Shown here: in pieces, positions 1,171 through 62,621 of the stretch | Layout: every line of letters starts with the position of its first letter | How positions within the stretch are numbered: the first letter of the stretch is position 1 | DNA from: Boothiomyces macroporosus | Taxonomy: Eukaryota > Chytridiomycota > Chytridiomycetes > Rhizophydiales > Terramycetaceae | Direction: 5' to 3' | DNA length: 64,000 nt | NCBI GenBank assembly: GCA_027604185.1 | Contig: JADGKB010000058.1 | Coordinates: forward strand, 24,957-88,956 | Made by a program: the position numbers and the translations under genes | Notes under the pieces: model-generated | The model's input: only the letters and a program-made list of their open reading frames with translations | Database searches by the model: none | Told to the model about the DNA's origin: nothing

Positions 1171-1540
1171 CTAATTCTCAATTACATTTGCAGACTTTTT
1201 GACTGCAGTTTCTACCACTGATGGAGCATCTCCTGCAGAACTAATATTAAGTCCAAGATACCATTCAAATAGAGAAGAGTATGGTTGAGCATTTTCGTAC
1301 AAGCGTCTCCCTGCATTCAGTGAGTATACCAGTGATCTGTTCAGTGGCGACAGTTTTTATTGACTCGATGGTGCTAAAAACTCCCAAAGAAATCAAGAAG
1401 CCAAGTGACAAGAAACAATCTTTGCCGTAATGACCATCAAAGGCACGAAATTGGACATACGCCAGAAGAATATCCACAAGTAACTGCACTTGACAATGAA
1501 AAAGCACACGCCCCAACCATTCCAACAAATGACACACCAT
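1171..1540 (-). CDS. Hypothetical protein, 116 aa, two exons
   Basis: I do not recognise this protein. The frame opens at an ATG (1540) two codons after an in-frame stop and runs about 70 codons. It then needs a 19-nt intron (1311-1329, GT...CTGAAT GCAG) that restores a good frame ending at 1171. The product has a hydrophobic N-terminal half (LLVDILLAYV, FLSLGFLISLGVF), so it may sit on or in a membrane. The C-terminal half is polar and ends SANVIEN. The splice signal matches the introns of neighbouring genes, which is the main reason to accept the model. It starts about 250 nt from the divergent P2X gene. Missing upstream exons cannot be excluded. Confidence 0.45.
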
Positions 1541-1792
1541 ATCTTAATAAAAGACTTTGGATTTAATGCCTGTGCAATATGAAAGCACGAAAATTAATCG
1601 CGAAGCTGGTGTACTATCAAAAATACAATAAATAGATATAAATGCTCTTTTAAAATCCGTAATTTGTCTTTGCTCTGGTCATTTTCCGAGATGCTCTTCG
1701 TGTTCTTGAATCACGCCAACCTAAAAAGGAGGGCCCTGATTCGGGAGGACTTGAAAGAGATTTAAACACTGAGCATTTTTCAAAATATTTGA

Positions 1793-3053
1793 ATGGGCTG
1801 TCTGGATTTCATTGCGTACCAATCAGTAAAAGTAGTAGTTGTACGAGACTACAGATTAGCGTTGCTGTACTACCTCAGTTTAATTGGTATCGCCGCCTAC
1901 ATTATATGGAATTCAGTTACAACAGGGTCGTATTTGGATAAAGCTCCTCCAGTTGCAGGGTCAGTTAGAGCAACTGTTCAGTTTGATTCAAGATTTAAAG
2001 TTCCAAAACCTTCATACTGTCACGACAGCGACCCAAACCCAAAGAATTTCCAGTACGGCTGCTTGTACTGGTCCGAAAATCAAATAGTATATCCATACCA
2101 AGGTGAATTAAACACCATTTTCATCACTACGAGAGTTTCAATTTCGGATGTTCCGACAGTATCTGGCTGTAACTTTATGGTAAATGCTTTTAATGGTAGG
2201 AAGCGAATTCCACAGGGTGCCAAGTTCCTGCTCCTGGTCCAAAGCGTACATACTATGTTGCGAATGTTGAAGCTTTGTCTTTTAGGGTAGACCATTCTGT
2301 CAGAGTCCAAGCTTCTTTCTCTTTTGGCCAGACACAACTGTTTTCAATGGCACCACAAAACATGAATGGCACCATGACTCAACAATGTGGTAAAAACCAA
2401 TATGACGTGATTACTTTCAACGGAGCTTACCGTTCTAACGAACTTGCCACAAATGGCACACGATTGGACACCTTTTTGCTAGGAGACCTTTTGAATTCTG
2501 CACAAGGCCAAAAAGATGATGGCAGCTGTCCTGATACCACAATTCCCTATGATTTCAATACGGTTTCTACTGCCGATGGCGCTAAACCAGGTGAGCCGGT
2601 AAGATCAGCTGGGGGAATCATTTCTACTCCCATCTTTTACACAAACAAAGCACAGCCATTCTCCTTGAATGGAGAAATCGCTTCCCTAGATTACAAATAC
2701 CTACCGTCATTCAGTACCTATCGTTAATTCTAGTCAAAGGATCTGAATTCAAAGTAGTAGAAACTGTTACAAACCAAGACGGCTCATTAACATACGTTGA
2801 CAGACACGGCTTCAGAGTAGTATTCGCCCAAACCGGTTCTATCGGTATATTCAACATGATCAATGCCTTGCTGAACGTTGTAGCTGGGTTTGCGCTGTTC
2901 AGTGTCGCTGCAGTAATCGTTGATTCGATTATGCTTTACATACTACCAAAAAGAAAAGAGTACCAGAGTGCAAAGTTCCAGGAAACTGCGGTTTTACATC
3001 CTACTAATGAGAATAATCAAGCGCTGCCACCTCTCCATTTCAGCTACAAATAG
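1793..3053 (+). CDS. P2X-type ATP-gated cation channel
   Basis: A 406-aa homologue of P2X receptors, trimeric channels opened by extracellular or luminal ATP. TM1 lies at about residues 23-43, with the N-terminal YQSVK in the place of the family Y-x-T-x-K phosphosite. TM2 lies at about 341-370, preceded by the family RxGFR-VVF...G-F stretch. Directly after TM2 is YILPK, which fits the YxxxK surface-retention motif of P2X. The loop between holds six cysteines (SYC, YGC, SGC, TGC, QQC, GSC) against ten in vertebrate P2X. Introns are 2180-2199 and 2714-2733, both 20 nt; splicing the first restores EANSTGCQVP before the conserved VEALSF segment. Dictyostelium P2X channels act in the contractile vacuole; a similar role in a wall-less zoospore is inference. 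Confidence 0.85.
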
Positions 3054-3088
3054 AAATAAAATCCATAGATTTCATCTTTGGAAATAGT

Positions 3089-61400: not shown

Positions 61401-61527
61401 TTAGTAAAAGAATAATCGGAAATTTAACAGTACTTTGAATCGGAGATTTATGGTTTGACGTGTATCTGTATCGGAGAATTTCAATTTTCTTTGAAAATTA
61501 ATTGATACATGTATTCTTGCTTCTGCT

Positions 61528-61605
61528 TATGAATTTATAGTTATTAACAAGAGTGTTTCTTGTATCTATGAATTTATAGTTATTAACAAGAGTGTTTCTT
61601 GTATT
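61528..61605. repeat. Tandem duplication, 39 nt x 2
   Basis: Two nearly identical units beginning tatgaatttatagttattaa in the 234-nt spacer between thymidylate synthase and tetraspanin. Confidence 0.9.
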
Positions 61606-61634
61606 TACACATGATCTAAGGATAAAAAAGATAT

Positions 61635-62621
61635 TTATGCAGACATTTCCATTACAATTTTAGAATGCGGATCATACCCAACCAACTCCAAATCTTCAAA
61701 ACAAAAAGACTCCAAATAAGCTATAACTGAATCTACAGTAGGATTCTCTAATGGTGCTTTTTTGATTTTCAAAGTGGGTAATGGTCTGCTTTAGTTTTAA
61801 TTACCTTGGCTCCCTCTTGATCTGTTCAGTTAGCGCGTCTACATGGTTCAAGTAGATATGAGCATCACCCATACAATGAACAAACTCTCCATATTGATAA
61901 CCTAACGCGTGTGCAATCATCATAGTCATTAATGCATAACTAGCAATATTGAATGGAACGCCTAACCCTACATCACATGATCTTTGATATAACTGACAGC
62001 TCAATTTCTTGTCATTAGTCAAATAAAATTGACTAAACATGTGGCAAGGGGGTAAAGCCATCTTGTCTAAATCTGCAGGGTTCCAAGCAGACATTACCAT
62101 TCTCCTATCGGTAGGATTGTGAATCAAACTATTGATAACCTTAAATTAAATATAAATACATCTCGCAACTGATCTTTTCCTTGTCCAGTGTAATCATAAT
62201 CGCATCCTTTATATTCAGCCCCAAAATGTCTCCACTGGAATCCATAAACAGGCCCCAAATCTCCTTCCCTATAATTTAAACCTCTAGAATCCAGAAACTC
62301 TCTCGATCCATTCTTGTCCCAGATTTTAACTCCCTTATCAGACAAGATCTTGGCATCAGTCTGTCCCCTAATAAAAAACATTAATTCTTCAAATACAGGT
62401 CTTAAATAGACTCGTTTTGTAGTCAGTAAGGGAAATGATGCCAAATTGAAGCGTAAATTTGTAGGAGCAAAGATCGAGATTGTTCCTGTTCCTGTGCGAT
62501 CGCCTCTCTTTTCTCCGGTTTTTAAAATTGCTTGAATCAAGGAAATGTATTGCTGTTCGTCAGATTCAAAAGTCATCGTGAATTTCGGACAAGAATTATT
62601 TTTTGAAAATATTCCAGACAT
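61635..62621 (-). CDS. Thymidylate synthase
   Basis: A 315-aa enzyme converting dUMP to dTMP with methylene-tetrahydrofolate. EDQ-like start ([30 protein letters not shown]), [34 protein letters not shown], catalytic [27 protein letters not shown] and [12 protein letters not shown] are all present. Introns 62140-62159 and 61786-61804. The start at 62621 gives [11 protein letters not shown]...; a second in-frame ATG before TFESDEQQ could also serve. Full-length and probably active. Confidence 0.97.

Follow-up and report, generated by a model that had tools for sequence, protein, structure and literature searches.

Predicted U2-type introns of about 20 nucleotides with a nearly fixed branch geometry in the chytrid fungus Boothiomyces macroporosus

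Can a fungal spliceosome work routinely on introns of about 20 nucleotides (nt)? The question is raised by a 64-kb stretch of DNA, hereafter the window, which is part of contig C58 in the 15.2-Mb, 216-contig assembly of the chytrid Boothiomyces macroporosus (Chytridiomycota, Rhizophydiales, Terramycetaceae). An initial annotation of the window described about 100 introns of 18-22 nt, spread over more than 30 genes, and placed their branch motif nearly at the 3' splice site. We consider it highly probable (roughly 90%), judging from sequence, that these segments are spliceosomal introns of the U2 type, reduced to little beyond two footprints for pairing with small nuclear RNAs (snRNAs). The sequences, ends, lengths, near-fixed geometry and genome-wide spread of the introns were obtained directly, as were the genes for U1, U2 and U6 and for the spliceosomal proteins listed below.

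The main sample, to which the counts below refer unless stated otherwise, comprised 264 kb (the window plus 200 kb from contig C1), and each strand was decoded separately using a third-order phased coding model with introns permitted anywhere. A flat-prior version of this decoder required GT..AG ends, made all lengths of 12-300 nt equally costly and had no branch motif in its model. Its first pass, with a coding model learned from long open frames only, gave a length peak at 19-22 nt (69 introns). For the comparison with control dinucleotide pairs the coding model was retrained once using its own GT-AG gene models, which resulted in 67 GT-AG introns of 18-22 nt versus 8, 3, 4, 1, 2, 3, 6, 7, 5 and 6 for ten other pairs (mean 4.5). 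GT-AG calls of at least 23 nt numbered 73, below the controls' 93-120, suggesting that longer introns are rare. The pentamer YTRAY stood 1-4 nt ahead of the AG in 49 of 68 flat-prior introns of 18-23 nt, compared with 675 of 9529 GT..AG strings of those lengths. Joining neighbouring open frames by skipping 15-30 nt stretches with GT..AG ends also produced dozens of candidates of 19-22 nt with YTAAY near the terminal AG. A motif-distance histogram of the window, combining five donor patterns with YTAAY, showed no peak; all five patterns had G at +5, which is found in only 17% of introns, so that the wrong consensus masked the signal. In a separate motif count, the mirrored and complemented controls amount to a single control, since both strands were scanned.

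A trained decoder, with length, donor and branch models learned from the decoder's own first calls, yielded 320 introns in 149 gene models (319 at the final training round), 317 of which measured 19-23 nt. Decoded coding length was 178 kb with the real intron model and 124-129 kb with control models. Because such a decoder reinforces its own motif, one could regard the introns as an artefact of sequencing errors, pseudogenes or over-fitted gene models, and the mirrored, complemented and reverse-complemented intron models indeed called 27, 13 and 13 introns of 19-23 nt, respectively. Against this stand the 67 versus 1-8 calls of the flat-prior decoder, which was ignorant of both motif and length, the exact ends in conserved genes and the 16-fold genome-wide enrichment described below, and we judge an artefact extremely improbable. 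A held-out set of 15 loci on 13 other contigs (49.7 kb; 18 loci before three overlapping or duplicate ones were removed), non-random in that it was retrieved via searches for splicing parts, contained 43 introns, 40 of them within 19-23 nt, where the three controls gave 1, 4 and 3. Nearly every intron in both sets clusters around a single short length, differing from it by a few nt at most, as in known ultrashort-intron genomes. Within the window, a strict threshold gave 69 introns in 24 of 32 gene models (19 nt, n = 17; 20 nt, n = 30; 21 nt, n = 12; 22 nt, n = 9; 42 nt, n = 1) and a loose one 83 introns and 46 gene models. This is a lower bound, as the decoder overlooked an open frame at 7509-8831 that matches ferroportin (FPN1, 2.2e-88). 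The kind of intron first described is thus upheld, with numbers corrected to 69-83 in the window and lengths to 19-23 nt.

We compared the junctions left after intron removal with homologous proteins (Table 1). The initial annotation had named six genes as fixing the ends to the base, and they do so at 6/6 junctions in PRP8, 1/1 in HEM2, 2/2 in the COX5B-like gene, 1/2 in RanBP1, 2/4 in Y14 and 2/2 in thymidylate synthase; together with the flat-prior counts, these junctions confirm that genes are rebuilt by removing GT-AG segments of about 20 nt. Over its long exon, PRP8 has 99% identity to the protein of Boothiomyces sp. JEL0866, in keeping with the genus of the host, and it shares 84-86% identity with the nearest other fungi among the matches listed. 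At every PRP8 junction three or all four of the homologues compared align gap-free; where one departs, it carries an extra or unmatched stretch of its own. Deposited JEL0866 proteins agree with our models at 5/6 PRP8 and 5/6 TBC junctions, indicating that Boothiomyces gene models on deposit already include tiny introns of this kind; for TBC, the deposited Terramyces protein agrees at 3/6. Some tiny introns seem to be mishandled in the deposited Boothiomyces and Terramyces models (P0001, P0121, P0241, P0242). The JEL0866 PRP8 model has seven extra residues at the intron 1 site, the start of the JEL0838 ISY1 model fits a first intron of 49 nt, and the Terramyces TBC protein lacks the exon between introns 3 and 4, which would be expected if the annotator was unable to call the two flanking tiny introns, although we take this as a hint only.

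One version of the intron pattern, GTAATTN5-6TAAYN2-3AG, matches 1453 times genome-wide versus 91 times for the reversed pattern (16-fold), a count slightly inflated by duplicated assembly stretches. Two such cases were noticed: five intron matches recur letter-identical at a constant 42,596-base offset between C2 280991-298168 and 323587-340764 (G000), and the CWC25 loci on C49 and C100 (L034, L035) have identical gene models; either segmental duplication or uncollapsed haplotypes in the assembly would account for them. The pattern matches 30 times in the 264 kb and is present in 24 of 319 decoded introns, from which scaling gives about 15,000 such introns in the genome, and scaling by sample density gives about 18,000. 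On average a gene model has 2.1 introns and a kilobase of coding sequence 1.8; 116 of 149 gene models contain at least one intron and 33 none. At the level of predicted genes, the tiny introns are confirmed as real and genome-wide.

Their anatomy is narrowly constrained. The commonest 5' splice site is GTAATT, with A at +3 in 90% and at +4 in 54%, T at +5 in 46% (G in 17-18%) and T at +6 in 56%. Within YTRAY the T occurs in 99%, the purine is A in 82% and G in 10%, and the next A is invariant (100%); the pentamer ends 2 or 3 nt before the AG in 90% of introns, in line with the original description of a motif almost abutting the 3' splice site. Taking the second A of YTRAY as the branch nucleophile, we located it at nucleotide 14 (121 introns), 15 (155), 16 (29), 17 (10) or 11 (1), i.e., at 14-15 in 276 of 316. 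Position 6 and the pentamer are separated by mostly 4-5 nt, 5 or 6 nt follow the branch A in 285 of the 316 introns, and the AG used is the first one past it in 290. The 51 flat-prior introns with the motif behave alike (14, 19 introns; 15, 22; 16, 7; others, 3). Agreement of the trained and flat-prior sets on positions 14-15 suggests that the lariat loop would hardly vary in size, 14 nt being its lower limit (1/316 below it, and 2/51 in the untrained set). The initial annotation had placed 5' splice site and branch within about 10 nt, which these positions contradict; its wording of a sterically extreme arrangement is fair, although the case is not unique, since lariats of 10-11 nt are reported for Stentor. 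Upstream of the pentamer there is no clear preference for UACUAAC, suggesting that pairing with U2 is short.

Rarer longer introns were also called, of 42, 43 and 59 nt in the 264 kb and of 24, 28 and 46 nt in the held-out loci. After removal of the 46-nt intron, in ISY1, the protein aligns gap-free there to close chytrid homologues, which argues that the spliceosome is not confined to tiny introns. Introns of 21 nt, a multiple of three (3n), make up 70 of the 320, a count between those of 20- and 22-mers. An in-frame stop is present in 68 of 69 called 21-nt introns and in 52-63% of 19-, 20- and 22-mers; in phase 0 this stop can be supplied by the branch motif's own TAA. Selection for stops in 3n introns is not proven, because stop-free 3n introns are harder to call.

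The search covered three snRNAs (U1, U2 and U6) and eight spliceosomal proteins, and all of these were present. U1 scored 68.8 bits, 0.7 under the family gathering score of 69.5, and has a canonical 5' end (AUACUUACCUG; L024 1501-1663). Two diverged U2 genes on C80 and C178 (L022 1501-1693, L023 1501-1691) both keep GUAGUA intact and U6 keeps its ACAGAGA box, all above gathering score. No change compensating for the weak +5 position was seen in the U1 5' end and, the U1 pairing box being normal, the weak +5 is uncompensated in U1. The proteins found were Isy1, Slu7, a U2AF65-like protein, Prp18, Cwc25, SF1 and Yju2, in addition to PRP8 in the window. The best stretch of the U2AF65-like match scores 230.7 bits, short of the 310.3 required at full length, and 2 of 14 control genomes likewise give weak matches to this family. 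Loss of Slu7, U2AF65, Prp18 or SF1 was rejected on the basis of these matches. The glycine plug of Cwc25, MGGGDLNLKKSWHP, is present and likely marks the protein start, the decoder's first ATG lying some 43 codons upstream, and Yju2 begins MAERKVLNKYIPP; we take both to be the usual sequences, and loss of the Cwc25 plug or the Yju2 N-terminus was likewise rejected. GC-AG and AT-AC introns of 18-22 nt (5 and 6, respectively) are at control level, and no U12-type AT-AC class rises above it in a search aimed at AT-AC ends and not at GT-AG U12 introns or minor snRNAs. With GT-AG ends, a branch motif that could pair with U2, and U1, U2, U6 and PRP8 in the genome, the introns are predicted to be U2-type.

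From this geometry we propose that nucleotides 1-6 (GUAWNU) would pair with U1 and later with the U6 ACAGAGA box, and that 4-5 free nucleotides would separate this donor footprint from YURAY. This motif would be recognised through pairing with the GUAGUA box of U2 and would offer its second A as the branch nucleophile, and branching would close a 14-15 nt lariat with a 5-6 nt tail, the AG 2-3 nt past the pentamer usually being the first beyond the branch. Alternatively, the segments could stay unspliced, being tolerated by translation (bypassing, like mitochondrial 'byp' elements) or removed from DNA like the internal eliminated sequences (IES) of ciliates. Such routes reportedly handle short elements in other organisms, and here it is from the DNA sequence that we infer snRNA pairing and removal at the RNA level. 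GT-AG ends and a U2-complementary branch motif at a near-fixed distance are, on the other hand, a spliceosomal signature that would be pointless in byps or eliminated DNA, and all the snRNAs and proteins sought are in the genome; we therefore give the unspliced alternative very little credence.

Several points weigh against this prediction of U2-type splicing from DNA. Training started from the decoder's own initial calls, and a minority of the introns must be wrong, roughly 13-27 of 317 by the controls. A strict YTRAY is lacking in 17 of the 68 flat-prior introns of 18-23 nt, and the branch A falls at 11-12 in 2 of the 51 that have one. An AG near the used one is passed over in 26 of 316 introns, whose ends are uncertain by a few nt. 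Slu7 is kept despite a distance of 5-6 nt between branch and 3' splice site; this protein is said to promote chemistry at long distances of this kind, while Prp18 stabilises the docked 3' splice site (PMC8022279) and may be needed regardless of the distance.

The literature describes several comparable systems, and it bears out the comparators named at the outset (nucleomorph, 18-21 bp, PMC10245619; Stentor, 15-16 nt, PMC9505925). Chlorarachniophyte nucleomorphs, with more than 800 introns in about 300 genes (PMC10245619), have a nearly equal narrow length window, but they are relict endosymbiont nuclei, whereas in Boothiomyces an estimated 15,000-18,000 such introns are spread over a fungal genome of 15.2 Mb. 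Mikrocytid introns (16-17 bp, 224 in M. mackini; PMC10245619) share the uniform tiny length, in a reduced parasite with only 17-19 spliceosomal proteins identified, in contrast to the full recovery of the eight sought here. Paramecium and Nyctotherus introns are somewhat longer (about 25 bp; PMC5014332) and resemble those of Boothiomyces in being only short and in that 3n introns often contain in-frame stops, although ascertainment favours the 68/69 found here; 3n introns are under pressure there, whereas our 21-mers are intermediate in number. In Stentor coeruleus the branch A lies at 10-11 and lariats are 10-11 nt long, and the non-conserved Isy1 N-terminus and lost Cwc25 glycine motif were interpreted as avoidance of a steric clash (PMC9505925). 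Stentor and Boothiomyces have in common a near-fixed lariat size, a 5-nt tail, a stringent GUA start, normal U1 and U2 boxes, a conserved Yju2 N-terminus and a non-conserved Isy1 N-terminus. They differ in lariat size and branch position (10-11 in Stentor versus 14-15 in Boothiomyces), in branch consensus (none strong in Stentor, YTRAY in Boothiomyces), in the Cwc25 glycine motif (lost versus retained) and in the share of intron-bearing genes (18% versus 116 of 149 models).

Intron length by itself is no record, given the nucleomorph (18-21 bp), mikrocytid (16-17) and heterotrich (15-16) values (PMC10245619). No earlier report of an ultrashort-intron regime in a fungus was found in a mostly open-access literature judged without full texts. 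What is new, as far as literature searches go, is such a regime in a fungus, with thousands of introns, a strong branch consensus and standard parts as tested. Earlier examples of ultrashort introns came from ciliates, the relict nucleus of an alga and a rhizarian parasite of reduced complexity (PMC10245619). That they are the rule in a member of the fungi, to which the laboratory yeasts belong, and that relatives exist whose intron sizes could be compared, makes the minimum-intron question testable, namely what limits how close together the 5' splice site and the branch point can lie. The 14-nt floor and a changed Isy1 tip offer one distance and one protein to test. The deposited Terramyces TBC model also serves as a warning that annotation can misread tiny-intron genomes.

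Of the Isy1, Cwc25 and Yju2 tips, only that of Isy1, a clamp of the branch helix, is changed in Boothiomyces, with its 14-15 nt loops. The usual start MARNxEKAxxMLxRF was not found by pattern in the three forward frames of the first 1420 bases of L025; the predicted protein, 98% identical to that of Boothiomyces sp. JEL0838, begins MAPKTLAQKQE..KLANILKKYDGVD, with an uncertain first intron. The decoder's model of that intron, with a 1-nt exon between two introns, is doubtful, and single-intron readings exist of 22 nt or, as in the deposited JEL0838 protein, of 49 nt. Among 120 listed Isy1 homologues from plants, animals and other chytrids, 62 have the motif by pattern and 35 start at the MLxRF core, and the other 23 comprise 13 MARS/MARD/ART/MART/MARN variants missed by the pattern, five truncated proteins and five changed ones (Boothiomyces, Kappamyces, Gorgonomyces, Globomyces and metagenome protein P0205). 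The change is graded: Boothiomyces has lost the motif, Kappamyces and Gorgonomyces have it in strongly changed form, and in Globomyces it is altered. In an Isy1 tree the five changed proteins group together (96/91) beside Batrachochytrium salamandrivorans, whose deposited Isy1 starts with the usual MLYRF core; a PRP8 tree pairs Gorgonomyces with Boothiomyces (100/99) and joins B. dendrobatidis to them next (100/99).

It is tempting to speculate that a steric limit at the branch helix has been relaxed via the changed Isy1 N-terminal motif, with Cwc25, Yju2, Slu7 and Prp18 unchanged, although we hold this to be doubtful. The motif or its core is retained in most of the 120 listed homologues and changed in this clade, and the Isy1 N-terminus is reported as non-conserved in Stentor, an independent tiny-intron lineage (PMC9505925). 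We find it somewhat more likely than not that the tiny introns involve no spliceosomal adaptation and that Isy1 has changed by drift, the clade being a fast-evolving one, as the Cwc25 plug, the Yju2 N-terminus and the U1, U2 and U6 pairing boxes are normal, the PRP8 identity to other fungi is as given above and longer introns of 42-59 nt were also called. The Globomyces Isy1 start is still recognisable (MANNQKEKQKSVVHRFRE), which weakens the Isy1 step and strengthens the case for drift. Other points also count against a role for Isy1: the start of the Boothiomyces protein hinges on the uncertain first intron (22 or 49 nt), Gorgonomyces has a long branch and an unsure placement in the Isy1 tree, and the change may be drift given that PRP8 of the clade is somewhat fast too. 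Over about 1200 conserved PRP8 columns, Boothiomyces departs at 19 and Gorgonomyces at 26; seven other fungi depart at 6-19, and Chytridium at 41, most of which are gaps. Three of the 19 Boothiomyces departures cluster at 1880-1893, from which we draw no interpretation. No related chytrid DNA was found when viral and prokaryote contig collections were searched via PRP8.

Convergence of Isy1 with Stentor is worth testing, bearing in mind that it concerns two lineages only, is graded within the clade and that the chytrid intron sizes measured are those of Boothiomyces. We regard as unlikely a wider scheme in which a Rhizophydiales clade (Boothiomyces, Terramyces, Globomyces, Kappamyces, Gorgonomyces) would have a remodelled spliceosome with a Stentor-convergent Isy1 tip, the 14-15 nt loop being too short for the U1 and U2 snRNPs to occupy one intron together and thus demanding exon definition or a strict U1-to-U6 hand-over before U2 docks.

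Table 1. Genes and predicted introns in the window, with the evidence for their junctions (^, junction; P numbers, homologous proteins).
Feature	Position	Strand	Evidence
PRP8 gene	22256..29370	+	7 exons, 2330-codon model; Pfam PRP8 domains
PRP8 intron 1, 20 nt, GTTTATTTCCCTAACTGTAG	22393..22412	+	gap-free with 3/4 homologues
PRP8 intron 2, 19 nt, GTACTCTTGATTAATGTAG	22549..22567	+	gap-free, 4/4
PRP8 intron 3, 21 nt, GTAAAAGATGATTAACAATAG	26794..26814	+	gap-free, 4/4; P0003 has 7 extra residues slightly upstream
PRP8 intron 4, 21 nt	27052..27072	+	gap-free, 4/4
PRP8 intron 5, 22 nt	27433..27454	+	gap-free, 4/4
PRP8 intron 6, 22 nt	29229..29250	+	gap-free, 3/4; gapped in P0002
COX5B-like cytochrome c oxidase subunit gene	29465-29967	+	PDB matches to subunit 4; both introns exact
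COX5B-like intron 1, 20 nt	29790..29809	+	IGCT^GFPA gap-free vs PDB 8c8q chain D
COX5B-like intron 2, 21 nt	29908..29928	+	VFK^Y ungapped up to final matched residue, PDB 8c8q chain D
Y14/RBM8A gene	45772-46372	+	4 introns; two ends exact, others beyond well-aligned part
Y14/RBM8A intron 3, 20 nt	46026..46045	+	QR^SVEGW gap-free vs PDB 5xjc chain w; one-residue gap slightly upstream
Y14/RBM8A intron 4, 19 nt	46183..46201	+	GYVK^GYAL gap-free vs PDB 5xjc chain w
HEM2 (delta-aminolevulinic acid dehydratase) gene	47974-48986	-	
HEM2 intron, 20 nt, GTGATTATTTCTAATTATAG	48338..48357	-	FYGPF^RDAA gap-free vs PDB 1pv8 (1/1)
RanBP1 gene	58921-59456	-	one of two introns exact, other beyond well-aligned part
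RanBP1 intron 2, 19 nt	58992..59010	-	NPE^NANKFK gap-free vs RanBP2 Ran-binding domains
Thymidylate synthase gene	61635-62576	-	both junctions exact
Thymidylate synthase intron 1, 20 nt	62140..62159	-	LRD^VIN gap-free vs PDB 6k7q
Thymidylate synthase intron 2, 19 nt	61786..61804	-	KREP^RPLP gap-free vs PDB 6k7q
TBC/Rab-GAP gene	33345-35687	+	six introns
TBC intron 1, 21 nt	33894..33914	+	identical in deposited JEL0866 and Terramyces proteins
TBC intron 2, 22 nt	33988..34009	+	identical in JEL0866 and Terramyces; gap-free in P0243, P0245
TBC intron 3, 20 nt	34366..34385	+	gap-free in P0243, P0245; JEL0866 model lacks 4 residues, Terramyces model lacks exon
TBC intron 4, 21 nt	34443..34463	+	identical in JEL0866; Terramyces model lacks upstream exon
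TBC intron 5, 22 nt	34672..34693	+	identical in JEL0866; gap-free in P0243, at junction in P0245; gapped in Terramyces
TBC intron 6, 20 nt	35284..35303	+	junction common to JEL0866 and Terramyces
Multi-KH-domain gene, 6 introns of 19-22 nt	11722..16011	-	KH domains and decoder model only
Multi-KH introns	15605-15624, 15364-15382, 15111-15132, 13545-13565, 13302-13322, 12559-12578	-	decoder model only
Hsp70-like gene	56959-58748	-	Hsp70 domain
Sole longer window intron, 42 nt, in Hsp70-like gene	57704..57745	-	decoder only; similar 3' end (GATTAATGATAG)

Two further features of the window were noted. The gene at 1793-3053 matches the ATP P2X receptor family (PF00864, 2.8e-16), a ligand-gated channel family, here in a chytrid, and short degenerate repeats (CTCTGTAGTAAAAGTTACTGT; TTAACCCTAAC-like) were seen by eye between two genes at about 5400-5730.

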